Assembly (NCBI GenBank): GCA_938027655.1
Contig: CALJAP010000013.1
Span: 1-44,136 of the forward strand
DNA from: an uncultured bacterium
GTDB lineage: Bacteria > Armatimonadota > HRBIN16
Direction: 5' to 3'
DNA length: 44,136 nt
Shown here: positions 17,145 to 33,721 of the stretch, one piece after another
Layout of the letters: every line of letters begins with the position of its first letter
How positions within the stretch are numbered: position 1 is the first letter of the stretch
Program-made: the position numbers and the translations under genes
The notes under the pieces: model-generated
Databases searched by the model: none
The model's input: the letters and a program-made list of their open reading frames with translations, nothing else
What the model was told of the DNA's origin: nothing

Positions 17145-20100
17145 ATGAGACGAGCGTATCTTGTTTTGTGGTGGGTGGTTTGCGCGTTTACCGCGCAAGG
17201 AGAGGTCACGGTGTGGGCACAGCTGCCTGTGCCTCCGATTAAGCCGATCGTCGGGGCGCGAATGCCTGCCCTGAGCCCCGATGGCAAACGAATCGCCTTC
17301 GTGTATCGTGGGGACGTATGGATTGCTCCCGCCACCGGTGGGCAGGCAACGCCTCTCACGCGCCACGTGGAGATGGACGCCTTTCCGCTCTTTTCGCCCG
17401 ACGGCAGATGGATTGCCTTCTCCAGCCTGCGCAACGGAAACTGGGACATTTTTGTGGTGCCGACAGACGGAGGAGAAGTGCGTCAACTGACCTATCACGC
17501 GAACAGCGAGATTGCGTACGGCTGGAGCCCCGATGGCAAGTATCTGCTGTTCTCCTCGGTGCGGGATACCACCAACAACACCCTTTTCGCGCTGGACGTG
17601 CGCACGTTGCGCTTCAAGAAGTTAGCCGAAGATTACGCTCCCCTCAACTATCCCAGCTACTCGCCCGACGGGAAGATGGTGGTGTACGGGCGATATGGCT
17701 TCCACTGGACCCGTCCGCGCTATGTGGGTTCGGCGGCGGCGCAAATCTGGTTGCTTGACCTTACCAGAAACACGCGCCGCGCCCTGACAAACAACAACCG
17801 CCAGCACCTGTGGACGAAGTTCCTGCCCGACGGCAAAAGCCTGTTGACCGTTACCGTTGGCGAGGAGACGCCGTCGGTTAGCAAGCTGGGCACTACTATT
17901 CCCAAGATTGTGGACAGTCCCAGCCGTACTCCGAACCTGTGGGTGTTCGACCTGGAAGGGCGGGGCAGGCAATTGACGTTCTTCACCGGGGGGGCGGTAC
18001 GCTTCCCGACGGTGGCGTGGCGTACGGGCGACATCGCCTTCGAGTACGAACACGACCTATGGCTCCTTCCCGCCGGTTCACGCAACCCACAGAAAATCGT
18101 ATTGTACGCCGCCGAGGACGAGAAACAGAACACCCGCCGGCGCGAGGTGCTGACCTCCGGCGTTACCGAAGCGGAGCCTTCGCCCGATGGCAAGACCTTT
18201 GCCTTCGGGTTGCGCGGCGACATCTGGACGGTGCTTATCGAAAAGCCGAAGGGGGTAGCAGGGCGCAGTGCCGAGATCGCCCGACGCCTCACCGACTGGG
18301 CAGGGGACGATTCGGATTTCGTGTGGTCGGCGGACGGCAAGAAGATATACTTTACCTCCGACCGTGAGTTCAATACCCGCCTGTATGAACTGGACATCGA
18401 AACGCTGCAGGTCAAACCTCTCTGGAACCGTTCCGAAGATGTAACCGGTCCGCGTCTTTCTCCCGACGGCAAGCAGCTGGCTTTCTGGGTATCGGGCAGC
18501 GAAGGTGGTTTGTATGTGCTAACTCTGGAGACGGGCGAGGTCAAACGCCTGGCGAAGGTGCCCGGCACGCACTGGTATGGGCTGGGCGGAGGACAGTTCG
18601 CGTGGTCGCCCGATATGCGCTGGATGGCGTTTACCTACCGTGGGGAAGACCTCGCATGGAACATCTGGATTATGCCAGCCGCCGGCGGTGACCCGGTGAA
18701 TGTCACACGCCTTAACGCCTACCACAGCCAGCCGGCCTGGTCGCCCGACGGAAAATATCTGTTCTTCCAGAGTGACCGTGACGGCAACGGGCTGTACGTG
18801 CTGCCCCTGCAGGAAGAACCCGCTCGTAGCGTAGACACCGACCTGAAGTACGAAAAACCCAAAGAGAAGGTGCTGGTGGAGATCGATTTTCAGGACATTC
18901 ACCGGCGTATTCGCAAGATGGTCAACCAGAATCCACAAGCCGACCTGACGGTCAGTGTTGAGGGACTCATCCTCTTCCTATCGGAAGGTGACATCTGGTC
19001 GGTATCGTACGACGGCAAGGAGACCAAACGTCTGACCACGGGCGGAGGTGTATCCAGCCTGCGGGTGTCAGCGGACGGCAAACGGCTCTTCTTCATCCGC
19101 AACGGCGAGCTGTGGACGATGAAGCTGGAGGGCAGTAACCCGCAGGAGAAGGTAACCTTCACCGCCGATTGGGAGCGCGACGTACGCGCCGAACGCAGGG
19201 CGGCGTTCACGCAGTTCTGGCGAAGCTACCACCGGGGTTTCTACGACGCGAACTTTCACGGCAGGGACTGGGAAGCCATTCGCAAGCGCTATGAGCCTCT
19301 GCTGGACGCGGTGGAAACGCGCGAGGAGTTCGCCACCCTGCTTCAGATGATGGTCGGTGAGCTGGAAGCCTCGCACTCGGAAGTATCCCCTGCGCCCGGG
19401 GGCAATCCCAGTCCGGTAACCCCCCATCTGGGATTTACCTTTGACTACAGCTACGAAGGTGCGGGCATTAAGGTCGGCAAAGTGCCGCAGGGTGCGCCCG
19501 GTTCCTACCCACAGACGCGCATCCGCGAAGGCGAGTACGTGCTGGCGATTAACGGACAGGATGTTACCCTCGACGAGAACCTGTGGAAGCTGATTAACGA
19601 CAAGCAGGAGCGCGAGTTCGAGTTTCTGGTCAACTCCAGGCCCAGTAAGGACGGTGCGCGCGTGGTGAAGTACCGCGTGCTGAGCGGTGGCGAGTGGAGT
19701 AATCTTATCTACCGCAACCGCATCGAGCGCCTGCGCAAATACACCGACGACAAGAGCGGGGGAAAAATCGGATACGTGCACATCTCGGGTATGGGGTTTG
19801 GCAATCAGGTGCAGTTCGAGCGCGAGGTGTACGAGCAGGTAGTCGGTAAGCAGGCGATGATTATCGACGTGCGCTTCAACGGGGGCGGTAACATCTCCGA
19901 CACGCTGGTAGACTGGTTGGAGCGCAAGCCTCACGGTTTCTACCGCCCACGTGACAGCGCCATTGAACCTGCTCCAAGCCGCGCGTGGGATAAGCCTATC
20001 ATCGTGCTGATGAACGAACACAGCTACTCCAACGCTGAGATGTTTCCCTACGCCATGCGCGCCAAGGGACTGGCAAAGCTGGTGGGTATGCCCACGCCGG

Positions 20101-20303
20101 GCTACGTTATCTGGACATGGGGGCTGCAGCTGGTGGACGGCACAGGAGCGCGGATGCCCCAGAGCGGCGTCTACCGTCTGGACGGCACGCCGATGGAGAA
20201 CATTGGCGAAAAGCCGGACGTGCAGGTGTGGATGACCCCCGACGACTGGCTGGAGGAGCGCGACCCCCAGCTGGACAAGGCGATAGAGATGCTGATGAGG
20301 TAG
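17145..20303 (+). CDS. Tricorn-like S41 protease with TolB-type propellers and PDZ domain
   Basis: This 1052-residue secreted protease has a signal peptide of about 25 residues. Two beta-propellers of TolB/WD40-like blades follow (repeated LSPDGKRIAF, FSPDGRWIAF, WSPDGKYLFFQSDRDGN). Next are a tail-specific protease helical region (about 685-760), a PDZ domain (GFTFDYSYEGAGIKVG, GEYVLAINGQDV) and an S41 catalytic domain (KIGYVHISGMGFGNQ, IIDVRFNGGGNISD, VLMNEHSYSNAEMF). Ser962 in HSYSNAE is the probable nucleophile by alignment with tricorn. The build matches tricorn, which trims oligopeptides from larger proteases. The upstream GATAAT hexamer (17125-17130) is a possible -10, and no Shine-Dalgarno is evident. 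Confidence 0.92.
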   Translation: MRRAYLVLWWVVCAFTAQGEVTVWAQLPVPPIKPIVGARMPALSPDGKRIAFVYRGDVWIAPATGGQATPLTRHVEMDAFPLFSPDGRWIAFSSLRNGNWDIFVVPTDGGEVRQLTYHANSEIAYGWSPDGKYLLFSSVRDTTNNTLFALDVRTLRFKKLAEDYAPLNYPSYSPDGKMVVYGRYGFHWTRPRYVGSAAAQIWLLDLTRNTRRALTNNNRQHLWTKFLPDGKSLLTVTVGEETPSVSKLGTTIPKIVDSPSRTPNLWVFDLEGRGRQLTFFTGGAVRFPTVAWRTGDIAFEYEHDLWLLPAGSRNPQKIVLYAAEDEKQNTRRREVLTSGVTEAEPSPDGKTFAFGLRGDIWTVLIEKPKGVAGRSAEIARRLTDWAGDDSDFVWSADGKKIYFTSDREFNTRLYELDIETLQVKPLWNRSEDVTGPRLSPDGKQLAFWVSGSEGGLYVLTLETGEVKRLAKVPGTHWYGLGGGQFAWSPDMRWMAFTYRGEDLAWNIWIMPAAGGDPVNVTRLNAYHSQPAWSPDGKYLFFQSDRDGNGLYVLPLQEEPARSVDTDLKYEKPKEKVLVEIDFQDIHRRIRKMVNQNPQADLTVSVEGLILFLSEGDIWSVSYDGKETKRLTTGGGVSSLRVSADGKRLFFIRNGELWTMKLEGSNPQEKVTFTADWERDVRAERRAAFTQFWRSYHRGFYDANFHGRDWEAIRKRYEPLLDAVETREEFATLLQMMVGELEASHSEVSPAPGGNPSPVTPHLGFTFDYSYEGAGIKVGKVPQGAPGSYPQTRIREGEYVLAINGQDVTLDENLWKLINDKQEREFEFLVNSRPSKDGARVVKYRVLSGGEWSNLIYRNRIERLRKYTDDKSGGKIGYVHISGMGFGNQVQFEREVYEQVVGKQAMIIDVRFNGGGNISDTLVDWLERKPHGFYRPRDSAIEPAPSRAWDKPIIVLMNEHSYSNAEMFPYAMRAKGLAKLVGMPTPGYVIWTWGLQLVDGTGARMPQSGVYRLDGTPMENIGEKPDVQVWMTPDDWLEERDPQLDKAIEMLMR

Positions 20304-20450: not shown

Positions 20451-22058
20451 ATGCAGGTGAGGCAGGAACTATCCCAAAAGCACGGAAGGGGGCTGGCTCC
20501 AGCTGGCGATGTGATAGTCATCACTGGTACGATGCTCATCGGCATCAGCGCGCTGGTGTTTCTGTGTGTGCTCTGCGCGTTTCTGGTGCTGCCATCAGAG
20601 GCTATCGCGAGCTTCTTGCCCGATGATGCTTTTTACTACTTCAAAATCGCCCGCAACGTTGCGAACGGATATGGTTTCTCGTTTGATACCATCAATCCGA
20701 CGAACGGCTACCAGCCGCTGTGGATGTATCTGCTGTTAGTACCCGCTTACATTACCCGGCAGATGCATGTGGAGGTCTTTCCTCGCGTTGCCCTCGTGTA
20801 CCAGGCGATGCTGTTACTGGTGGCTGTTGCGCTGCTGCACAAAGCGTTGATTCGAAGTTGCAACCTCCCTGCCGTGTTGATGGGAGACGCCTTTGCCCTT
20901 GTATTGGGCTTGCGGGTGTTCGTGAATGGTATGGAGAGCACAACGGTTTTTCTCGTCTTCGCGGGCATCGTCTGGTATCTATCTCGCCAAGCCGGTGATT
21001 CACAGGACGCGGCGTACTTTGCCCTTGTCGGGCTGTTGTCCGGGGTGCTCTTTCTGGCGCGATTAGATAACATCTTTATCGTTCTGGCGTGGACGGTCGG
21101 TCACGCTTTGCTGAGAAATCAGGCGCGTATGCGCTGGAGCCATCTGCTACTGATGGCTGGGGCGGTGGGATTGGTAGCCGTGCCTTATCTGCTATACAAC
21201 TACGTGGCGTTCGGTGACCTGGTGCCGATTAGCGGTAAGTTGAAAAGTTCGTTTCCGCGTGTGGAGCACCCCGACTTGTCCCGTATACCTTTGCACTCCT
21301 ATTTTGTGCTGGTTATCTGCCTGTTCGCGGTGCTCTGGCTGTGGCGCAAGATGGAGCAGCCACGAATGCTTCTCCTTTTCCTGTCGGCATGGAGTGCGGG
21401 AATCTGGCTACATGCTCTGCATACCGTCCTGTTTATGAAATGGGCGGTGTTCAAGTGGCACTTTGCCTCCTACTGGATACCCCTGACGGTGATCGTGCCT
21501 CTGCTACTGACACGTTGGCAGCAGTCTCGCTACGCCACCCCTGCGTACCTAGCAGGAGTGGTGGTATGGGGATCGCTCGTGCTATCGTTAGGGCAGTTTT
21601 TCTGGCAAGCGTGGCGTGGAAAAGAGTTGCCGGACTGGCATCGGGTGGGTTATCGTGCTGCTGTATGGGCACGACAGAATACGCCTCCGCAGGCGGTATT
21701 TGCGATGAAAGATTGCGGGGTTTTCGGCTATTACTCCGACCGCCGTGTGGTGAACCTGGACGGGGTGGTAAACAACACCGAGCTGCAGACGTATCTCCAT
21801 CGGCAGCAGCTGGGTCGGTATCTCGCCCGAAAGGGTGTGAGGTTTCTGGTGCAGCATGCCGTGCATGAACGCTCCACAGCAGTGGAGAACGCTCCTGCGG
21901 TTGCCAGCGGCGTATACGAGCAGACCACCATCCGTTACGTTAGCCAGTTGTACGGCACGGTAAGCGACGCCATTCCCCTTCGACGGAAACAGGAGCGGTT
22001 CCGCCAGCGGGCGCGAGAAGGAGTATATCTTATCTGGGACCTGGCGAGTACGCCCTAG
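20451..22058 (+). CDS. GT-C-fold membrane glycosyltransferase
   Basis: This 535-residue polytopic membrane protein has roughly ten hydrophobic helices. It carries the GT-C signature in the first outer loop: FLPDDAFYYFKIARNVANGYG then NPTNGYQPLW. This pattern, an acidic pair and a later NGY.PLW, resembles polyprenyl-phosphate-sugar dependent transferases such as AftB-like arabinosyltransferases. The C-terminal 140 residues form a soluble domain (DCGVFGYYSDRRVVNLDGVVNN). It probably moves a sugar from a lipid carrier onto a polysaccharide or protein outside the inner membrane. The gene converges on epsI with a 4-base overlap. The start ATG has GAAGAGGCAGG upstream. The substrate is inferred only. 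Confidence 0.8.
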   Translation: MQVRQELSQKHGRGLAPAGDVIVITGTMLIGISALVFLCVLCAFLVLPSEAIASFLPDDAFYYFKIARNVANGYGFSFDTINPTNGYQPLWMYLLLVPAYITRQMHVEVFPRVALVYQAMLLLVAVALLHKALIRSCNLPAVLMGDAFALVLGLRVFVNGMESTTVFLVFAGIVWYLSRQAGDSQDAAYFALVGLLSGVLFLARLDNIFIVLAWTVGHALLRNQARMRWSHLLLMAGAVGLVAVPYLLYNYVAFGDLVPISGKLKSSFPRVEHPDLSRIPLHSYFVLVICLFAVLWLWRKMEQPRMLLLFLSAWSAGIWLHALHTVLFMKWAVFKWHFASYWIPLTVIVPLLLTRWQQSRYATPAYLAGVVVWGSLVLSLGQFFWQAWRGKELPDWHRVGYRAAVWARQNTPPQAVFAMKDCGVFGYYSDRRVVNLDGVVNNTELQTYLHRQQLGRYLARKGVRFLVQHAVHERSTAVENAPAVASGVYEQTTIRYVSQLYGTVSDAIPLRRKQERFRQRAREGVYLIWDLASTP

Positions 22059-22732
22059 ATAACCTCAGGCAAACTCTGCTCGAGCGCGGAGAGCATTTGC
22101 CCGGCGAACTCGCGAACCACGTTCAGGTCCTTCTCCTCATTGTCCGAGGAGGGAATAATGAAGCGCATGAAGAAAGTCTGTTGACGTTGCATTCCCAGCA
22201 GGCGCGCTATATAGGTGGAGATTCGCGCAACGGCGGCCGAGCCGGTTGACCCAAGAGGCGAGCGATACCAGTACACAACCGTTGCTTTCCGCCCGTTATT
22301 GTCTACCAGCATTAGGCGTGCATGGTACGATTTGCCCACGCTGGGTATCCGAAACTCTACCTGACGGTCGTTCTGAATTTTCCATCCCTGGTCGGGGAAA
22401 CACAGGTGGGGATTGTGGAAAGCGTCTGAGTGCGTACCGGCGAGCAAGACAAAATCGATTTGCCGTCCTTCGGGGTTGATGTATATTCGCGAGATGATAG
22501 CATCAGGGCGGAGAGCCTGGTAAACCAACGCTCCCATTTCGTAGCGTCGTCCCTGCCATTCGCCCACCTGCACAGGGATACGTTCATCGGTGATTTCCAC
22601 GGTGACCTTGCCCTGCCCCGGGCGGGTAACCAGTACGACGATCGCTGTTGCCACGCTAAGCGCGAAGAGTACCCACAGGTTGCGCAGCGAGTATTTCGGG
22701 TAGCCGTTAGAAACAGAAGTTAACGACGCCAT
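22055..22732 (-). CDS. epsI: EpsI family exosortase-associated protein
   Basis: EpsI proteins are partners of exosortases in exopolysaccharide clusters. This 225-residue protein has one N-terminal hydrophobic helix (LWVLFALSVATAIVVLV) and an extracytoplasmic domain with the family pattern GEWQGRRYEMG, GTHSDAFHNPHLCFPDQGW (the usual H-x-P-x-x-C motif), YHARLMLVDN and VVYWYRSP. The C-terminus is acidic with FAGQMLSALEQSLPEVI. The start at 22732 (MASLTSVS) is backed by GGGAGGTTACTGGG. It overlaps the exosortase by 13 bases and is the last gene of the operon. The function in the family is unknown beyond co-occurrence. Confidence 0.9.
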   Translation of the reverse strand: MASLTSVSNGYPKYSLRNLWVLFALSVATAIVVLVTRPGQGKVTVEITDERIPVQVGEWQGRRYEMGALVYQALRPDAIISRIYINPEGRQIDFVLLAGTHSDAFHNPHLCFPDQGWKIQNDRQVEFRIPSVGKSYHARLMLVDNNGRKATVVYWYRSPLGSTGSAAVARISTYIARLLGMQRQQTFFMRFIIPSSDNEEKDLNVVREFAGQMLSALEQSLPEVI

Positions 22733-23589
22733 CCCAGTAACCTCCCTACTTGAAACAATGCGGCGAAGGCAACCACCAGCACGAGGTAGCCGCTCCAATC
22801 GTGAAAGTTGTAGCCCGCTTCCTCACCGAACTTCGTGCCAACGATGCCGATAAGGGCAATTCGCAAACCGTTGATGAAAATCGCTAGAGGCAGTGCGGTT
22901 ATCACCAGCACCACCTGCCGCCAGATGCTGGTGCCGATGTAGTAGGCAAAGAAGGCGGCAAAAGTTGCCATCGAAATAAGCATTTTGAACCCGCTACAGG
23001 GCACTCCTACATCCAGATCGAACCCACCCGGGATATAGATGAAGTTGCCTACCCGACGGGTTTCGTAGCCGATGGTTTTGAGAATAGCGTCAGCAACGCT
23101 GGTGGACCACGCCTGTGCGGGTTGGGAAATCTCATCGAAGAGAACCCCGGGCAGGGGCATCATGAACAGAAGAAACAGCAGAGGAAACCAGAGAATGCGC
23201 ACATAATTCCACCCGAGAAGCGCAGCCGTCATGCCGTACAGCAGCATCAGGAAAGAGACGGAGGATAACGTAGTGGACGGCGCGAGATGCCCCAGTATGC
23301 GCAGGAGCAACGCAGGCACAATGAGCCAGAAACCGTGACCGCTAGGAGCAGGTGACTCTCTGCGCAGCTCCTCGCGACGCATCCATACCATATACGCTGC
23401 CAGAAAAGGTACAAGCACACCGTGCGAGTAGTAACCCGTCCACTCGAACCATTTGCCCTTCCAGTCAACGAACATCGAGTAGTAAGCCACAAAGACCGTT
23501 ATTGCCAGCCCGATGCCCAGCCAGAAGGCACGCTGGGGTAACCACTGCTTAATCGCCCAGCGATAAGGTTTGCGGATTGCTTCGTTCAT
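22720..23589 (-). CDS. xrt: Exosortase (Xrt)
   Basis: This 289-residue membrane protease/transpeptidase sorts proteins with C-terminal signals such as PEP-CTERM. It has about eight hydrophobic segments and the catalytic triad in the usual context: Cys198 (GVPCSGFKML), Arg243 (NGLRIALIG) and His263 (FHDWSGY). Its gene overlaps gtrA by the ATGA tetranucleotide and epsI by 13 bases. No neighbouring gene carries an obvious PEP-CTERM tail, so its substrates must lie elsewhere. The subtype cannot be set by eye; the EpsI partner and polysaccharide context suggest an EPS-associated exosortase. Confidence 0.93.
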   Translation of the reverse strand: MNEAIRKPYRWAIKQWLPQRAFWLGIGLAITVFVAYYSMFVDWKGKWFEWTGYYSHGVLVPFLAAYMVWMRREELRRESPAPSGHGFWLIVPALLLRILGHLAPSTTLSSVSFLMLLYGMTAALLGWNYVRILWFPLLFLLFMMPLPGVLFDEISQPAQAWSTSVADAILKTIGYETRRVGNFIYIPGGFDLDVGVPCSGFKMLISMATFAAFFAYYIGTSIWRQVVLVITALPLAIFINGLRIALIGIVGTKFGEEAGYNFHDWSGYLVLVVAFAALFQVGRLLGWRR

Positions 23590-24059
23590 TGTGTCCGTAC
23601 CGCTCCTTTCCGATGACCGAAAGTCCAGCGTCTATTGGCAAAGAAGTTCCAGAACACCACGATGCCCGTTGCCAGTATCTTGGCGCCGTTAAACACCAGT
23701 TTCGGGTGCGGGTCGTGCTTATCGAATAATAATACGAAACTTACGATACTGTAGTTCAGCAACGCTCCAACGATGTTTACCACCACAAAGCGGATAAACT
23801 CCTCATGCACCGCACGCCGCTCACGGTCGCGGAACGTCCAGCGACTGTTCCAGAAATAGCCGTTGACCACCGCCACGCAAAACCCCATCACACTCGCCAG
23901 CGCCGCCGGACGCACATGGAGCAGATAGTAGGCGATGTTCGCCACCGAAAAGTCGATCACTGTGCTGCTTGCACCGACAATGCAGAACTTAATGAACTGC
24001 CGTACGCCTTTCCGCTGTAGCTGCGTCGTTACCCAATTGCTAACAGAAGCACCGTTCAT
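23586..24059 (-). CDS. GtrA family membrane protein
   Basis: This 157-residue protein has four hydrophobic helices and the GtrA pattern: RQFIKFCIVGASSTVIDF, MGFCVAVVNGYFWNSRWTF and FFANRRWTFG at the end. GtrA proteins flip or help to flip lipid-linked sugars. The mycobacterial member Rv3789 is linked to decaprenyl-phosphoarabinose handling. The gene follows DPPR synthase by 9 bases and overlaps the exosortase, so it belongs to the operon. AGGAG lies just ahead of its ATG. Confidence 0.88.
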   Translation of the reverse strand: MNGASVSNWVTTQLQRKGVRQFIKFCIVGASSTVIDFSVANIAYYLLHVRPAALASVMGFCVAVVNGYFWNSRWTFRDRERRAVHEEFIRFVVVNIVGALLNYSIVSFVLLFDKHDPHPKLVFNGAKILATGIVVFWNFFANRRWTFGHRKGAVRTQ

Positions 24060-24068
24060 TCACTGCTC

Positions 24069-24986
24069 CTATTGTACGATTGCCCAGACCGCCACAACTA
24101 TCCACAATAGTATTGTGGCTTGGATGCCTCGGTCCTCCAGTAGTACCTGCTCGGGAGCGCCGCCCAGGTCTTTGCGATGCACCAGATACAGATACCTGAA
24201 GATACCGTACATCACCAGGGGAATAGTATACTTCAAGTTCTCGTGTTGTGTTGCAGTTGCGCTCTGGATGGTGTAGAGCGCGTACGTAATGATCGTGGCG
24301 GAGCTGACTATGGCAATGAACTGGTCCAGCAAACCGACACTGTATTCCCCCAGCGTCACCCGGTGATTGGGTGCCTCCTCGCCAAGCGTAACGAGCTCGT
24401 GCCTGCGTTTGCAGAACCCCAAAAAGAGCGACAGCAATGTGGTGCACGCCAGCAGCCAGCCCGAGATGCTGACGTCGATAGCCACTGCCCCTGCCAGCGC
24501 GCGCAGCACAAACCCTGCGGCAATCAAGAACACGTCCAGAATGACAATGTGCTTTGCGCCCAGCGAATACGCCAGCGAAAGCAATATGTAAAGCACCGCC
24601 AGCCAGCCAAAGGCAGAGCGTATCCAGAACGCCAGCACCAGACCGACCAGCATCGCACCGACCATAAACCAGCTGGCGACCATTACCGGCAACTTGCCGG
24701 AGGCGATCGGACGCAATCGCTTCTGGGGGTGCAGACGGTCCTCTTCCACGTCCTGCAGGTCGTTGTAAATGTACACGGCACCCGAAATCAAGCAGAAGCT
24801 GAGGAACGCCAGCACATTGAGCCACACCCTGGTGGCATCTCCCAGCTTCTCGGCGAAGAGCAGTCCTGCAAACAGCAGCAGATTCTTACTCCACTGGCGT
24901 GGTCGCATCGCGACCACGCCCCATCTTATCCATTCTATCGGGCTTGCCTGCTGCAAGGAGAACCCGTTTTGCCTCGACCACTTCAT
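24069..24986 (-). CDS. Decaprenyl-phosphate phosphoribosyltransferase (DPPR synthase, UbiA family)
   Basis: This 305-residue, roughly nine-helix UbiA-type prenyltransferase joins phosphoribose to a polyprenyl phosphate. Diagnostic features are MRPRQWSKNLLLFAGLLFAEKLG at the start, the first Asp-rich motif NDLQDVEEDRLHP (Asn75, Asp76, Asp79, Asp83), the phrase RLRPIASGKLP and the second loop DVFLIAAGFVLRALAGA. The family provides the ribose/arabinose lipid donor (mycobacterial Rv3806c). It lies 27 bases after the ExoY-like gene and 9 before gtrA. The epimerase that would turn ribose into arabinose (DprE1/E2) is not in the window. No clear ribosome site precedes the ATG. Confidence 0.9.
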   Translation of the reverse strand: MKWSRQNGFSLQQASPIEWIRWGVVAMRPRQWSKNLLLFAGLLFAEKLGDATRVWLNVLAFLSFCLISGAVYIYNDLQDVEEDRLHPQKRLRPIASGKLPVMVASWFMVGAMLVGLVLAFWIRSAFGWLAVLYILLSLAYSLGAKHIVILDVFLIAAGFVLRALAGAVAIDVSISGWLLACTTLLSLFLGFCKRRHELVTLGEEAPNHRVTLGEYSVGLLDQFIAIVSSATIITYALYTIQSATATQHENLKYTIPLVMYGIFRYLYLVHRKDLGGAPEQVLLEDRGIQATILLWIVVAVWAIVQ

Positions 24987-25013: not shown

Positions 25014-25721
25014 TTAACAGGCGCCTTTGCCGGTAATCACCGCAGGAACGGTAAACAGCAAAATCTTCAAGTCCGTCCAGAAGCTCATGGTATCGATATA
25101 GATATGGTCCAGTTCTACCCACTCGCGGAACCCGATGTTGCTGCGCCCGCTAATTTGCCACAAGCAGGTCAAGCCGGGGGGCACACTGAGTCGACGCATC
25201 TCCCACTCGCCGTAGCTTGCCACCTCCGATGGCAGAGGCGGGCGCGGACCCACCAGACTCATCTCGCCATGCAACACATGAATGAGCTGGGGCAGCTCAT
25301 CCAGGCTATAACGCCGCAGGAACCTGCCGACGCGCGTTACCCGCGGGTCGTTGCGCATCTTAAAAACCGGACCTCCACGCACCTCGTTTTTGGGTATCAG
25401 GTCGCGCTTAATCTGTTCAGCGTTTTTCACCATCGAACGAAACTTGATGAACCAGAACGGCTTCCCACCTTTGCCAATCCGTACCTGCCGGAAAAGCACC
25501 GGTCCCGGCGAGTCCAGCTTAATCGCTATCGCGATGAGCAGCATCAACGGCGCCAGCAACACCAGCCCAACGCTCGCTACCACTATGTCCAGGATGCGCT
25601 TGGCGATGCGGTAGCCTCTGGGCAGCTCAAGTACGGGCACGGTTATCCGCAGGTCCGGCATCTCTGCCTCCCCCACCGCAGGAGGAGCAACACCGGGCAA
25701 TGGTGTTTGTGCGTGTGCCAT
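25014..25721 (-). CDS. Undecaprenyl-phosphate sugar phosphotransferase (ExoY/WcaJ type)
   Basis: This 235-residue enzyme transfers the first sugar phosphate onto the lipid carrier and starts polysaccharide repeat-unit assembly. One hydrophobic segment (residues about 43-63, ILDIVVASVGLVLLAPLM) is followed by the family motifs GPVLFRQVRIGKGGKPF, FIKFRSMV, VGRFLRRYSLDELPQL, LVGPRPPLPSEV and PPGLTCLWQISGR. It lacks the multi-helix N-terminal half of full-length WcaJ, like ExoY or RfbP catalytic domains. It follows the Wzc-like gene by 109 bases. The RBS is GAAGGGAG. It is the third gene in the polysaccharide operon. Confidence 0.93.
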   Translation of the reverse strand: MAHAQTPLPGVAPPAVGEAEMPDLRITVPVLELPRGYRIAKRILDIVVASVGLVLLAPLMLLIAIAIKLDSPGPVLFRQVRIGKGGKPFWFIKFRSMVKNAEQIKRDLIPKNEVRGGPVFKMRNDPRVTRVGRFLRRYSLDELPQLIHVLHGEMSLVGPRPPLPSEVASYGEWEMRRLSVPPGLTCLWQISGRSNIGFREWVELDHIYIDTMSFWTDLKILLFTVPAVITGKGAC

Positions 25722-25830: not shown

Positions 25831-27951
25831 CTATCCTCGGGGCAGCGCACGCGCCGACGGCTGACGCAACGCCAGCTCGCGATACGCTCTCCTGTAGTAG
25901 TAAACGCCCCGGCTATCCTCCGGACGCACCTTGTTCAATACCGCGCCAATCAGGTTTGCTCCCACCTGTTCTAGACGAGTGTGGAACTCAGCTTCTGCCC
26001 CCCGCGACGGTTGCCCGGCTGCGTGCACAATCACCACGTTCTTCACGTGGGCTGCAATGAGCACGCTGTCCGCGAAAATGGCTCCTGCAGGCGAGTCGAA
26101 TATCACAAAGTCCGCTAGTCGGGTAGTGCGTTCGACAAATTGCTCCATCATCGGTGAGCGCAGGAGACGGACAGGGTTGCTCGCCGACGATCCCGCCGGT
26201 ATGAGCACCAGTCCTTCAATCATCGTGGGCACAGCAACGTCTTCGATAGATTTCTCACCGGCGAGCACATCCGCCAGTCCCAGCGAGTTATCCACGCCGA
26301 AGCGGGTGTGCAGGGTGGGCTGGCGCATGTCACCATCTACTAACAGCACTCGTGCCCCGTCACGGGCAAGCGTAATGGCAAGGTTCGCTGCGGTCGTGCT
26401 GCGCCCGACGTTCGGCTCCGCGCTAGCGATAACGACAGCAGAGCCCTGCATCTGCCGACTGGCGTACCACAGGTTGGTGGAGAGTATCTGGTACGATGCG
26501 CCGATTGGCGTAAAACCGTCCTGCTTGTCCAGCGCATTGGGCTTCATCAGCGGTATCACGGCGAAGACCGGCAGCTTGAGCAGTCGCTCGGCTTCCTCTG
26601 GTGTACGCACAGAGGTATCCAGTTGCCCCAGCAGCAATACCACACTGCTCGCCAGAAGGAGCGACAACAGCAACGCCAGCGCGACCTTCAGCCCCGTCTG
26701 CTTGGGAACCAGAAACACCTGTGGCGGATCCAGCAGCACCAGTGTGGCGGTTTGAGCGCCTCGTTCCTTCGCGCGCGCTTCGTCCAGTTTCTGCAGGTAG
26801 AGGTTGTACGTCTGTTCGGCGGTACGCGCCGCCAACTCGAGCCGGGCAACACCTGCCTCTTTGCGCGGCATGTCGGACAGCTCAGCAAGCGCCCGGCGCA
26901 GGGGTTCTGCATACGCCTGTGCGCGTTTGGCAGCAGCCTCTTCAGCCACTCGCGCTGTGATGTACGCTTGCAGCGTCGCATCGCGGATGGGGTTGCGCGC
27001 ACGCGTTTGCGAGTTCAAAATCTGCTCGCTCTCCAGTCGCATGCGTGCCTCAATCTCCGCAATCTGCGCCTTGAGCGCGACCACGTCCGGGTGACGTTCG
27101 GCTTTGGTTTGCAGTTCCTTCTGCAGCTGCGCCTGTGTGCGAGCCAGATCGACACGCAGTTGCTCCAGCACCGGGTTGGTTGCCATCACGCGCTGGAACT
27201 CTTCATACTCGTTTTTAGCGTACTGACTTTTGAGCTCCTGTTCTGCTGCGATGCGCCGTGCCCGTGCCTCTTCCATCTCCACCGTCGCCTGGTCCAGGTT
27301 GGCACGATATTGCGCCGCGCGCTGCACCAGTACCTGCGTCTGGAAAGTTAAATCGCCGCTGATGCGGTTCGCCAGCTTGTAGTCGGCAAGAGCTTTGCGC
27401 TTGGCGTCCAGCTCTGCCTTCGCCGCAGGCAACAGCTCGTTCTCGATGCGTTCGCGCTCCGACCGAACGGTTCCCTGTGTCAGCTCGTTGTAGCGTTCGG
27501 TGGCTTTCGCTACGAGCACACTGAGCGCGGTTAGCGCGTTCTGGGGGTCGGGGTCACGCAGGCGCACGCGCAGGAACTCGGTATTGGGTATCGGCTCCAC
27601 ACGCACGTTCCCACCGAAGGCTACAACGCGCTCGGCGGGAGTATTGCCCTCCAGCATACCCGGGCGCAATACCTGCAGGTCCTCAACGGTTTTGCTAATC
27701 ACGGTGTTGCTGGATACGAGTTGCGCTAAGTTCTGTAGGCGCAGCACTGGGTCGTTAATCAGAGCGCGAACAGGGTAAATCTCGGTTGCCATTTCACCGA
27801 CGGGACGCTGTTCGCGCAGCACGGCGACCGCCTCATACTGCTGTGGGGCGGTGCGCGACCACACCAGCACCGCGCTGGCGCACAACACCACCACCAGCGC
27901 GATGAGGCGCCATCGCCGCTTCAAAATCATATAGTGACGCCAGAACTCCAC
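25831..27951 (-). CDS. Polysaccharide chain-length regulator fused to a BY-type tyrosine kinase (Wzc-like)
   Basis: This 706-residue protein has an N-terminal Wzz domain with two membrane helices (RRWRLIALVVVLCASAVLVW and VALALLLSLLLASSVVLLL) flanking a long coiled-coil periplasmic part rich in Arg, Glu and Ala. A C-terminal tyrosine autokinase follows: Walker A region SAEPNVGRSTTAANLA, Walker A' VLLVDGDMRQP and Walker B FVIFDSPAG, ending with a Tyr cluster (GVYYYRRAYREL). The Walker A lysine expected in GKS/T is Arg517. The partner export protein lies 17 bases upstream. It would set polymer length and control export by phosphorylation, if the kinase is active. Confidence 0.93.
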   Translation of the reverse strand: MEFWRHYMILKRRWRLIALVVVLCASAVLVWSRTAPQQYEAVAVLREQRPVGEMATEIYPVRALINDPVLRLQNLAQLVSSNTVISKTVEDLQVLRPGMLEGNTPAERVVAFGGNVRVEPIPNTEFLRVRLRDPDPQNALTALSVLVAKATERYNELTQGTVRSERERIENELLPAAKAELDAKRKALADYKLANRISGDLTFQTQVLVQRAAQYRANLDQATVEMEEARARRIAAEQELKSQYAKNEYEEFQRVMATNPVLEQLRVDLARTQAQLQKELQTKAERHPDVVALKAQIAEIEARMRLESEQILNSQTRARNPIRDATLQAYITARVAEEAAAKRAQAYAEPLRRALAELSDMPRKEAGVARLELAARTAEQTYNLYLQKLDEARAKERGAQTATLVLLDPPQVFLVPKQTGLKVALALLLSLLLASSVVLLLGQLDTSVRTPEEAERLLKLPVFAVIPLMKPNALDKQDGFTPIGASYQILSTNLWYASRQMQGSAVVIASAEPNVGRSTTAANLAITLARDGARVLLVDGDMRQPTLHTRFGVDNSLGLADVLAGEKSIEDVAVPTMIEGLVLIPAGSSASNPVRLLRSPMMEQFVERTTRLADFVIFDSPAGAIFADSVLIAAHVKNVVIVHAAGQPSRGAEAEFHTRLEQVGANLIGAVLNKVRPEDSRGVYYYRRAYRELALRQPSARALPRG

Positions 27952-27968: not shown

Positions 27969-28889
27969 TTAGTATCGATAAAATGCCCTGTTCAAAATCA
28001 TGTTGCGGGTTAGCGCAACGGTCGCGACGATGCTGTATATCTGGTTCCAGTCGGGCTTTTTCACCTCCGGCACGTACACCGTGTCGCCCGGCTGGAGCGG
28101 AATATCCTGAGAGAGGTCTCCCTTATCGATCAGTTTAAGCAGGTTCACCACGATGCGCTGCGGTTTGTCCGGCGCGTCAAGGTTAGGGCGGATGACGTAC
28201 ACCTTGCTCAGGGTACCCTTATCCAGCTGACCGCCGGCGCGGTTGATGGCTTCCAGCACGGTGGTGCTGTTTTTCCACGGGTAGAGCCCCGGACGCTGCA
28301 CCTTGCCCAGAACGTATATCCGGTTCACCACGTCCTCGGGGATATATATCACATCGTCGGGTTGCAGGCGGTAGTTCTGGCTCAGGTCGCCCTTGAAGAA
28401 CATCTTCTCAAGGTCTAATGGGATGACCTCTTCGGTGCCATCCGCTCGTTTGCGACGGAGCAGGGCATCCTTCAGCAACGCGCGGTCGGGGTCGAAGCTG
28501 CCCGCCATCGAAATAGCGTGCATGACGGTCTCCCCCTCCTTGAATTCGTAAGAGCCGGGGCGCTGAACCATACCCAGCACCGCTACGCGCGGGCGGTTAA
28601 TCACGCGAATGCTAACGCTGACATGCGGGTCGCGCAGGAATTGTGCTTCAATCAGCGCAAGGCGAATCTTTTCCGCTACCTCGCCAGCGGTCAGCCCACG
28701 CACGGTGATGGTTCCCACCACCGGCAGGTTAATGGTTCCGTCCTGCGCCACCACCATCTCGCGGGTCAGATTCGGGTCTTCCACCACAGTGATCTGCAAA
28801 ACGTCGTCACGCTGTATGCGATAGGTATCGTCCGCTATCGCCAACGCGCTAACGGTTAGCAGCAGGAGTGCTATCCACACAGCTCTCAT
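27969..28889 (-). CDS. Polysaccharide export protein (Wza-like, SLBB domains)
   Basis: This 306-residue periplasmic/outer-membrane protein forms the export channel for the polysaccharide. It has a signal peptide (LLLLTVSALAIA) without a lipobox Cys. The Poly_export domain follows (YRIQRDDVLQITVVEDPNLTRE, PVVGTITVRGLTAGEVAEKI), then two SLBB domains (RVAVLGMVQRPGSYEFKEG and RIYVLGKVQRPGLYPWKNS) and a C-terminal segment with IPLQPGDTVYVPEVKK. It is the first gene of the operon. GAAGGAGG precedes the ATG by about 9 bases. The absence of a lipid anchor is a small difference from Wza. Confidence 0.92.
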   Translation of the reverse strand: MRAVWIALLLLTVSALAIADDTYRIQRDDVLQITVVEDPNLTREMVVAQDGTINLPVVGTITVRGLTAGEVAEKIRLALIEAQFLRDPHVSVSIRVINRPRVAVLGMVQRPGSYEFKEGETVMHAISMAGSFDPDRALLKDALLRRKRADGTEEVIPLDLEKMFFKGDLSQNYRLQPDDVIYIPEDVVNRIYVLGKVQRPGLYPWKNSTTVLEAINRAGGQLDKGTLSKVYVIRPNLDAPDKPQRIVVNLLKLIDKGDLSQDIPLQPGDTVYVPEVKKPDWNQIYSIVATVALTRNMILNRAFYRY

Positions 28890-32873: not shown

Positions 32874-32903
32874 ATTCTATCCCGACAGGGGCGGTGTTGT
32901 CAA
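32874..32903 (-). promoter_or_regulatory. Promoter of the transketolase genes
   Basis: On the minus strand, TTGACA (32898-32903), an 18-base spacer and TAGAAT (32874-32879) give a near-consensus sigma-70 promoter. Predicted transcription begins near 32867, 27 bases before the TTG start and just ahead of its AGGAGG. Confidence 0.75.
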
Positions 32904-32918
32904 ACGTGCAGTTGACAA
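32897..32918. promoter_or_regulatory. Palindrome spanning the two divergent -35 boxes
   Basis: TTGTCAA (32897-32903) and TTGACAA (32912-32918) are exact inverted copies with 8 bases between. The arms contain the -35 boxes of the transketolase and HAD promoters, read in opposite directions. One regulator bound here, or mutual interference between polymerases, could coordinate the two transcripts. Confidence 0.6.
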
Positions 32919-32941
32919 CGCACCGCTTTTGCCCGTATAAT
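32912..32941 (+). promoter_or_regulatory. Consensus promoter of the HAD phosphatase gene
   Basis: TTGACA (32912-32917), an 18-base spacer and TATAAT (32936-32941) match both boxes exactly. The ATG at 32981 is about 33 bases past the predicted start. It is the strongest promoter seen in the window. Confidence 0.8.
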
Positions 32942-32980
32942 GCACAAGGGAAAAGCTTTCTCACCATCATTTTTTCAGTC

Positions 32981-33721
32981 ATGAGGAGTGCATTGACAGC
33001 GACACAGCCACCTTTTCGTTGCGCGCTGTTCGATATAGACGGTACTCTGGTCGACACCGTGGAGTTAATCGTCCGCGCTTTAGACCATACTTTCCGCAAA
33101 CATCTGGGAGTACAGATTTCGAGAGACGAGTTGCGTCGAACGATCGGGCTTCCGTTGCACAAGCAAGTGCGCCTGTTCGACCACCTGGTGGACTTTGCGC
33201 CGGACCACCGCGCGATGGAAGAGGACGAAATCGCCTATTATGAGGCGCACAAGCATCTGGAAGAGGTGATTCCTGAGGCAGTGGATGCGCTCAAGGAGGC
33301 GAAACGCGCGGGGTTGCGAACGGCTCTGGTGACCTCGAAGAACAGGATAGAGCTGGACACGTTCCTGCCACGTTTGAACGTGAACGGCTGGGTAGATGTA
33401 GTAGTCAGCGCATCCGACGTAGCTCGTCCGAAACCTGCGCCCGATCCGGTGCTGGTAGCTCTGCAGAGGCTGGGCGCGCTACCACAGGAAGCAGTTTTCG
33501 TGGGCGATACGGTGTACGACATCCAGTGTGCCCGAGAGGCTGGAGTGAAGGTGATAGCGGTCGGTTGGGGCGCACACCCGATAGAGGTGTTGCGTGCAGA
33601 ATCGCCCGACTGGCTGTTTGAGGAACCTGCTCAGCTCCGGGAGTTTTTCCGGTTGCTCGCACAGCGCGCCGAGCCGGAGGTGGCACGTGTCGGCATCCCC
33701 ACGGCGAACGAAATGCCGTGA
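32981..33721 (+). CDS. HAD-family phosphatase (phosphoglycolate phosphatase/PpaX-like)
   Basis: This 246-residue HAD-superfamily hydrolase has motif I FDIDGTLVDT (Asp18, Asp20), a helical cap (HTFRKHLGVQIS through ALKEAKRAG), motif II ALVTSKN, motif III (RPKPAPDPVL) and motif IV (VFVGDTVYDIQCA). The pattern matches phosphoglycolate phosphatase and PpaX/Gph-type enzymes that act on small phosphates; the exact substrate is open. The ATG at 32981 is used; TTG at 32993 is a rival because AGGAG lies just before it. The next gene starts 24 bases after its stop, so both share the strong promoter. Confidence 0.87.
   Translation: MRSALTATQPPFRCALFDIDGTLVDTVELIVRALDHTFRKHLGVQISRDELRRTIGLPLHKQVRLFDHLVDFAPDHRAMEEDEIAYYEAHKHLEEVIPEAVDALKEAKRAGLRTALVTSKNRIELDTFLPRLNVNGWVDVVVSASDVARPKPAPDPVLVALQRLGALPQEAVFVGDTVYDIQCAREAGVKVIAVGWGAHPIEVLRAESPDWLFEEPAQLREFFRLLAQRAEPEVARVGIPTANEMP

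Follow-up and report, generated by a model that had tools for sequence, protein, structure and literature searches.

The decaprenyl-phosphoarabinose pathway of mycobacteria comprises Rv3806c, Rv3807c, DprE1/DprE2, Rv3789 and AftB/Emb, and its DprE1/DprE2 step is a tuberculosis drug target. Here we analyse a 44,136-nucleotide stretch (contig CALJAP010000013.1, the whole of which we call the window) from an uncultured Armatimonadota bacterium of the HRBIN16 lineage, in which a protein of the decaprenyl-phosphate phosphoribosyltransferase family (polyprenyl-phosphate 5-phosphoribosyltransferase, DPPRS) and a GtrA-family membrane protein are encoded inside an exosortase-type exopolysaccharide operon, with a GT-C glycosyltransferase gene converging on it. 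As in mycobacteria, the window genome has DPPRS, DprE1 and DprE2 homologues, a small flippase-like membrane protein and a GT-C with remote similarity to AftB, but it has no Emb (PF04602) or AftB (NF041481) match and its genes are split over two loci. The assembly that contains the window, as contig C13, has 219 contigs totalling 3.53 Mb and an estimated completeness of 99%; the order of the window organism is represented by ten genomes, all of one genus (handles in G, C, L and f below denote genomes, contigs, loci and families). HRBIN16 appears as a clade of Armatimonadota in published hot-spring surveys (PMC11788075, PMC9671151, PMC11071339).

A closer parallel is the set of Gram-negative systems presented by Kelly et al. 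2024 (PMC11127046), which attach alpha-pentofuranoses outside the membrane by means of a polyprenyl phosphoribose synthase, a MATE flippase and a GT-C. By that account, DprE1/E2 homologues are present when arabinofuranose is added; the paper also cites proposed arabinofuranose donors for Pseudomonas pilin. ORF12–ORF15 of Citrobacter youngae O1/O2, as outlined there, resemble the present case in combining a UbiA/DPPRS-type synthase, a flippase and a GT-C, the pentose being changed by epimerases (SDR or DprE1/E2). The window differs from that outline in having GtrA in place of the MATE flippase, a synthase without a HAD domain, a GT-C without a GT136 assignment, unlinked DprE1/E2 and an Armatimonadota exosortase operon as its setting. 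Of the three components, synthase and GtrA are adjacent in the window, and the GT-C lies near but convergent, in five of nine genus loci only. By analogy, the window fits the kind of pathway set out in PMC11127046, whose chemistry is already known. The preliminary description of this locus, which held that arabinofuranosyl decoration outside Actinobacteria would be notable, therefore put the matter too strongly, Gram-negative pentofuranose transfer from polyprenyl-phosphate donors being already in print there. The window also resembles XrtA/EpsH-type exosortase exopolysaccharide operons in its Wza, Wzc/kinase, sugar transferase, exosortase and EpsI genes; it differs in adding the DPPRS–GtrA pair and in having no named exosortase type over its cut-off.

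Our best explanation in full, to which we give a probability of roughly 0.55, is that the window encodes two steps, entry and flipping, of a pathway to a lipid-linked pentofuranose donor, inside an exosortase-type exopolysaccharide operon. DPPRS would catalyse the entry step, a phosphatase would take off the 5-phosphate, DprE1/DprE2, encoded outside the window, would convert ribofuranose to D-arabinofuranose, and GtrA would flip the donor. The pentofuranose would then be added to the operon's surface polymer, or to an exosortase-processed protein, by a GT-C acting outside the membrane; the convergent enzyme is a possible candidate.

The window DPPRS (24069–24986, minus strand; 305 residues, UbiA fold, PF01040) belongs to its family, scoring 284.6 bits against the cut-off of 234 of the curated NCBIfam model NF008977. 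A PDB sequence search matches it to the solved DPPR synthase 8j8j (E=6e-35). It has the ND..D...D motif (N75, D76, D79, D83) and the R..E motif (R194/E197) of the cytoplasmic loops, residues that were assigned by motif and not by alignment to the protein of PMC11127046; the spacing of ND..D...D is that of the residues given as required for activity in that protein. Transfer of phosphoribose from phosphoribosyl pyrophosphate (PRPP) to polyprenyl phosphate is predicted from these features. The genome search found no other DPPRS-family match, so that DprE1 would have no other evident substrate source. GtrA (23586–24059, minus strand) matches PF04138 (E=9.2e-28) and is a candidate flippase for the lipid-linked sugar. 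DPPRS-family proteins 39–43% identical to that of the window are also encoded on haloarchaeal plasmids (records H1, H3, H4 and H5).

DprE1/E2 are indeed missing from the window, as the preliminary description had noted, and a search of the genome located homologues of both elsewhere; their absence from the genome, which that description had named as an outcome that would refute its reading, is rejected. The dprE1 gene is split by a contig break, with PF01565 matches at C77:4–297 (minus strand) and C156:1–240 (plus strand), and the ends of the two contigs have 141 identical bases in common. These halves account for two of the five PF01565 places in the genome; the remaining three resemble, by sequence, a GlcD-type oxidase, a GlcE-like oxidase and MurB, the names GlcD and MurB being our own reading. 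The C156 part of DprE1 (382 residues) matches the solved DprE1 4g3t over its whole length (E=1e-90), DprE1 entries make up its top nine PDB matches, and the protein keeps the HGKN and K-D motifs of the flavin-oxidase active site. Cut by contig ends, this part alone reaches 432 bits to NF053785, for which the cut-off is 500, and genus copies spanning the model reach 466–497 bits, all below it. Directly after dprE1 lies dprE2, encoding an SDR. A PDB search with this protein gives a single match at E<=1e-20, namely the DprE2 chain of entry 21gq (E=1.6e-28); on its model scores, given below, we name it a DprE2 homologue and not a DprE2 family member. In G006 dprE1 is intact, again with dprE2 immediately after it. 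The genes around the pair have no evident glycan link.

A strong DprE1 is kept in seven of the eight genus genomes of our phylum sample, G004 (89% complete) being the one without. Genus DprE1 (G000:C156:1–1149; L085:9599–10969) has an alanine (TIALDF) where the aligned 4g3t has a cysteine (NVCVDF), and several other DprE1s compared have alanine at this position. The replaced residue corresponds to the benzothiazinone-binding cysteine of mycobacteria, and the alanine would predict resistance to covalent benzothiazinones.

The operon lies on the minus strand and is tightly spaced. In transcription order it encodes a Wza-type outer-membrane polysaccharide export protein (27969–28889; PF02563 and SLBB), a Wzc-type chain-length determinant fused to a tyrosine autokinase (25831–27951; AAA_31, Wzz, and TIGR01007 at 140.5 bits over a cut-off of 108.05), a polyprenyl-phosphate sugar-1-phosphate transferase (SugTr; 25014–25721; Bac_transf, PF02397, and TIGR03025 at 308 bits over 295.55) predicted to start the polymer, DPPRS, GtrA, an exosortase of the EpsH/Xrt family (22720–23589; PF09721, E=3.3e-61) and the exosortase-associated protein EpsI (22055–22798; PF11984, and TIGR02914 at 72.5 bits over 42.8). 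The listed start of EpsI is a TTG, the real one probably being further in. GtrA starts 10 bases past the DPPRS stop, and its own stop shares 4 bases with the start of the exosortase gene. The exosortase is over the cut-offs of the general models TIGR02602 (159 against 105.55 bits) and TIGR04178, and none of the named NCBIfam exosortase types reaches its own cut-off. The GT-C gene (20451–22058, plus strand; 535 residues) converges on EpsI from the opposite side. Every gene named in the preliminary description lies where it was placed, and DPPRS and GtrA do sit inside an exopolysaccharide/exosortase operon. In the neighbourhood comparison that it proposed, the order from Wza to EpsI is identical in all nine genus loci compared (the window and eight others), so this grouping is not due to chance, and the GT-C accompanies it in five of the nine only.

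Among 201 Armatimonadota genomes, each at least 85% complete, 199 have a DPPRS-family match at E<=1e-3 and 135 have one above the NF008977 cut-off. The genomes with a DprE1 homologue form two groups, a strong one of 17 (426–497 bits) and a middle one of 78 (about 125–305 bits). In other families, seven of the loci fetched (L089, L090, L091, L105, L242, L264 and L266) carry DPPRS, DprE1 and DprE2 next to one another. Because DprE1/DprE2 are present in the window genome and form an operon with DPPRS in these other families, a polyprenyl-phosphate-D-arabinofuranose donor is probably made in the window organism.

The association of DPPRS with exosortases is real and limited to some lineages. By profile searches of fetched loci, on which these counts are based, an exosortase lies near DPPRS in L103, L114, L115, L116, L118 and L121 among 19 usable loci (leaving out of the count L105, where it is 15 kb off) and in L256, L258, L259 and L262 among another 12, both sets having been chosen with other aims. 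The order DPPRS-GtrA-exosortase-EpsI is seen in families f1, f40 (L103, the one genome examined) and f42, where four of five genomes carry it (G178 as L121, G187 as L114, G191 as L262 and G200 as L234) and the DPPRS of the fifth, G189, sits at a contig end. In f12, DPPRS lies beside SugTr-exosortase-EpsI, with no GtrA match, in six of the eight genomes that have a strong DprE1, the exceptions being G172 and G195; of the other f12 genomes examined, five (G153, G119, G202, G109 and G181) carry the three-gene DPPRS-DprE1-DprE2 operon, while in G174 the DPPRS stands alone. A second exosortase is encoded in the window genome at G000:C187:833–1585, and two exosortase matches occur in each of eight sampled genus genomes.

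The convergent GT-C carries PDDAFYYFKIARN and TNGYQPLW within residues 57–91, so the NGYQPLW signature reported earlier is present. Its conserved D58–D59 is the acidic pair after the first helix, and its AlphaFold model is confident (mean pLDDT 91.9) with a GT-C fold; together these place it in the GT-C superfamily. The protein has no Pfam or NCBIfam match at E<=0.001, neither it nor its profile matches any PDB sequence at E<=10, and tblastn against plasmids returned a single weak record. Compared with PDB structures, the model matches ArnT (VIA Z 19.3), AftB (16.0, over 406 residues at 4.4 Å), AftA (15.8) and Emb (14.6), as well as Pmt and OST; the structure hence singles out no donor. Aligned by HHalign to Nocardia AftB, a 32-row GT-C profile gives a probability of 90.8 (E 1.2e-6, 217 columns, 22% identity), as against 0.2 and 0.1 for two unrelated membrane proteins used as controls, and BLASTP of the GT-C against the same AftB gives E=0.005. 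By these comparisons the enzyme is not an AftB; the two are only distantly related members of one broad superfamily. Of the earlier label 'AftB-like', the fold and the remote profile similarity stand; the family model and the distribution of the gene (both below) do not bear it out, and the label reflects an impression from motifs.

Other members of the superfamily occupy varied settings. Among 79 superfamily loci, DPPRS lies within about 10 kb in 12, three of which are the genus itself, and DprE1 in 10. The clearest is that of a Pleurocapsales cyanobacterium (L148), with DPPRS, DprE1, DprE2 and GT-C in a row. In L107:6498–9412 (G165, a genome without DprE1) a superfamily GT-C reading frame overlaps the DPPRS start, the DPPRS match there being counted with one internal TGA. 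Mycolicibacterium sp. CH28 (L136) has a GT-C of the window's own clade, 33% identical; no DPPRS match occurs in that stretch, and this speaks against AftB. Large GT-C genes of about 750–1270 residues and high similarity (L152, L155, L157, L158, L159, L177, L185, L189 and other OY282xxx/CATQH loci) occur in metagenome-assembled genomes of Gammaproteobacteria, Entotheonella, Acidobacteriota, Latescibacterota and Dehalococcoidia, often with DPPRS, DprE1 and DprE2. Their short branches across phyla suggest a horizontally shared D-arabinofuranose cluster, perhaps one of sponge symbionts. Use of a pentofuranose donor is thus possible for the superfamily, and unproven for the window member.

Several results weigh against the proposed pathway. 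No dedicated phosphatase emerged from Pfam scans of 20 other window open reading frames, which gave only a general HAD hydrolase (32894–33721). The DprE2 homologue is below the NF053786 cut-off (169.8 against 250 bits), its best model being a general SDR family, and the NF053785 cut-off of 500 bits is passed in none of the 201 genomes (best 497.3). Only 95 of them have a DprE1 homologue that scores at least about 125 bits, so DPPRS alone does not mean arabinose: in about half of the genomes, which have DPPRS and no DprE1, DPPRS must serve a purpose for which arabinose is not required, or its family name spans more than one activity. Most simply, that purpose would be a ribose donor. The operon might accordingly make polyprenyl-phospho-ribofuranose and place ribose on its polymer, with DprE1/E2 drawing on the same donor for another glycan. 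This would agree with the unlinked position of the dprE1E2 pair relative to the exosortase operon in the genus, and with f42, whose genomes keep the DPPRS-GtrA-exosortase-EpsI block with DprE1 matches no better than those of generic FAD oxidases (G178 7e-12, G187 3e-9, G189 2e-9, G191 1e-9, G200 7e-10), which suggests decoration with ribose or another pentose there. Citrobacter O1, as portrayed in PMC11127046, uses a polyprenyl-phospho-ribose donor directly. We nevertheless think the ribose reading of the operon unlikely, given the retention of a strong DprE1 by the seven genus genomes and the DPPRS beside an exosortase in the six f12 genomes with a strong DprE1. It is similarly improbable, in our estimate, that the donor is used for a general envelope glycan or a pilin of the phylum and that its genes lie beside the exosortase operon only incidentally. 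DPPRS is near-universal in the phylum, and of 40 loci fetched regardless of exosortase only one (L234, f42) has an exosortase beside DPPRS, the other 39 having none near it; against this, the DPPRS-GtrA-exosortase-EpsI order is the same in three families and the window genes are tightly spaced.

The remaining counterpoints concern the convergent GT-C. NF041481 matches neither the window GT-C at E<=1 nor any protein of the genome at E<=10, by which AftB family membership is rejected, and PF04602 likewise finds no Emb match in the genome. The GT-C is found in 8 of the 201 genomes, as against 199 for DPPRS, so that it is rejected as an obligate DPPRS partner; it stands beside the operon in only the five genus loci, and in genus genomes without it even a profile search gives at most 39 bits. 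Its presence in the genus instead tracks the type of exosortase and EpsI, occurring with one type and not with the other. The branch that parts GT-C-bearing from GT-C-free genus genomes measures 0.04 in the five-gene Wza-to-GtrA tree and 0.46 in the exosortase and EpsI tree, as if exosortase, EpsI and GT-C had changed together, and not with DPPRS and GtrA. The enzyme could then be part of an exosortase/EpsI cassette, unrelated to the pentofuranose donor and transferring another polyprenyl-phosphate sugar. In a 100-row tree, from which the L107 GT-C was left out, its closest relatives form a 17-row clade (SH-aLRT 98) without DprE1 linkage; outside the genus, none of them has DPPRS or DprE1 in the surrounding 10 kb or so. 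The 18 DprE1-linked rows all lie together on a single side of another branch (support 87), in a clade to which the window GT-C does not belong. More distant superfamily members do adjoin DPPRS-DprE1-DprE2, as in the Pleurocapsales locus, or overlap the DPPRS start, as in G165. We regard the cassette explanation as a serious contender that falls somewhat short of even odds, and the convergent GT-C as a candidate transferase that may as well serve something else.

Upstream of the GT-C gene and adjoining it, a Tricorn-protease-like protein with PD40 repeats, Tricorn_C1 and peptidase S41 is encoded at 17145–20303 (plus strand); its best match in the compared stretch of G007 is only 37% identical.

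The part of the lipid-linked pentofuranose proposal most worth a test is the recurrent DPPRS-GtrA-exosortase-EpsI block of f1, f40 and f42. It is undescribed in the open-access literature searched, where we found no description of a link between exosortases and DPPRS, GtrA/EpsI or arabinofuranose. A bolder and tentative extension, which we rather doubt, is that the block is a dedicated Armatimonadota module coupling exosortase sorting to pentofuranosylation, placing D-arabinofuranose (in HRBIN16 and some f12 genomes) or ribofuranose (in f42) on a polymer or sorted protein. With a DprE1 homologue in 95 of the 201 sampled genomes, the DprE1/DprE2 step appears to be common in an environmental phylum. 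To our knowledge, the sugar carried by exosortase-associated polymers and proteins is an open matter; an exosortase-linked lipid-pentofuranose module, if true, would offer a first guess at what that sugar is.

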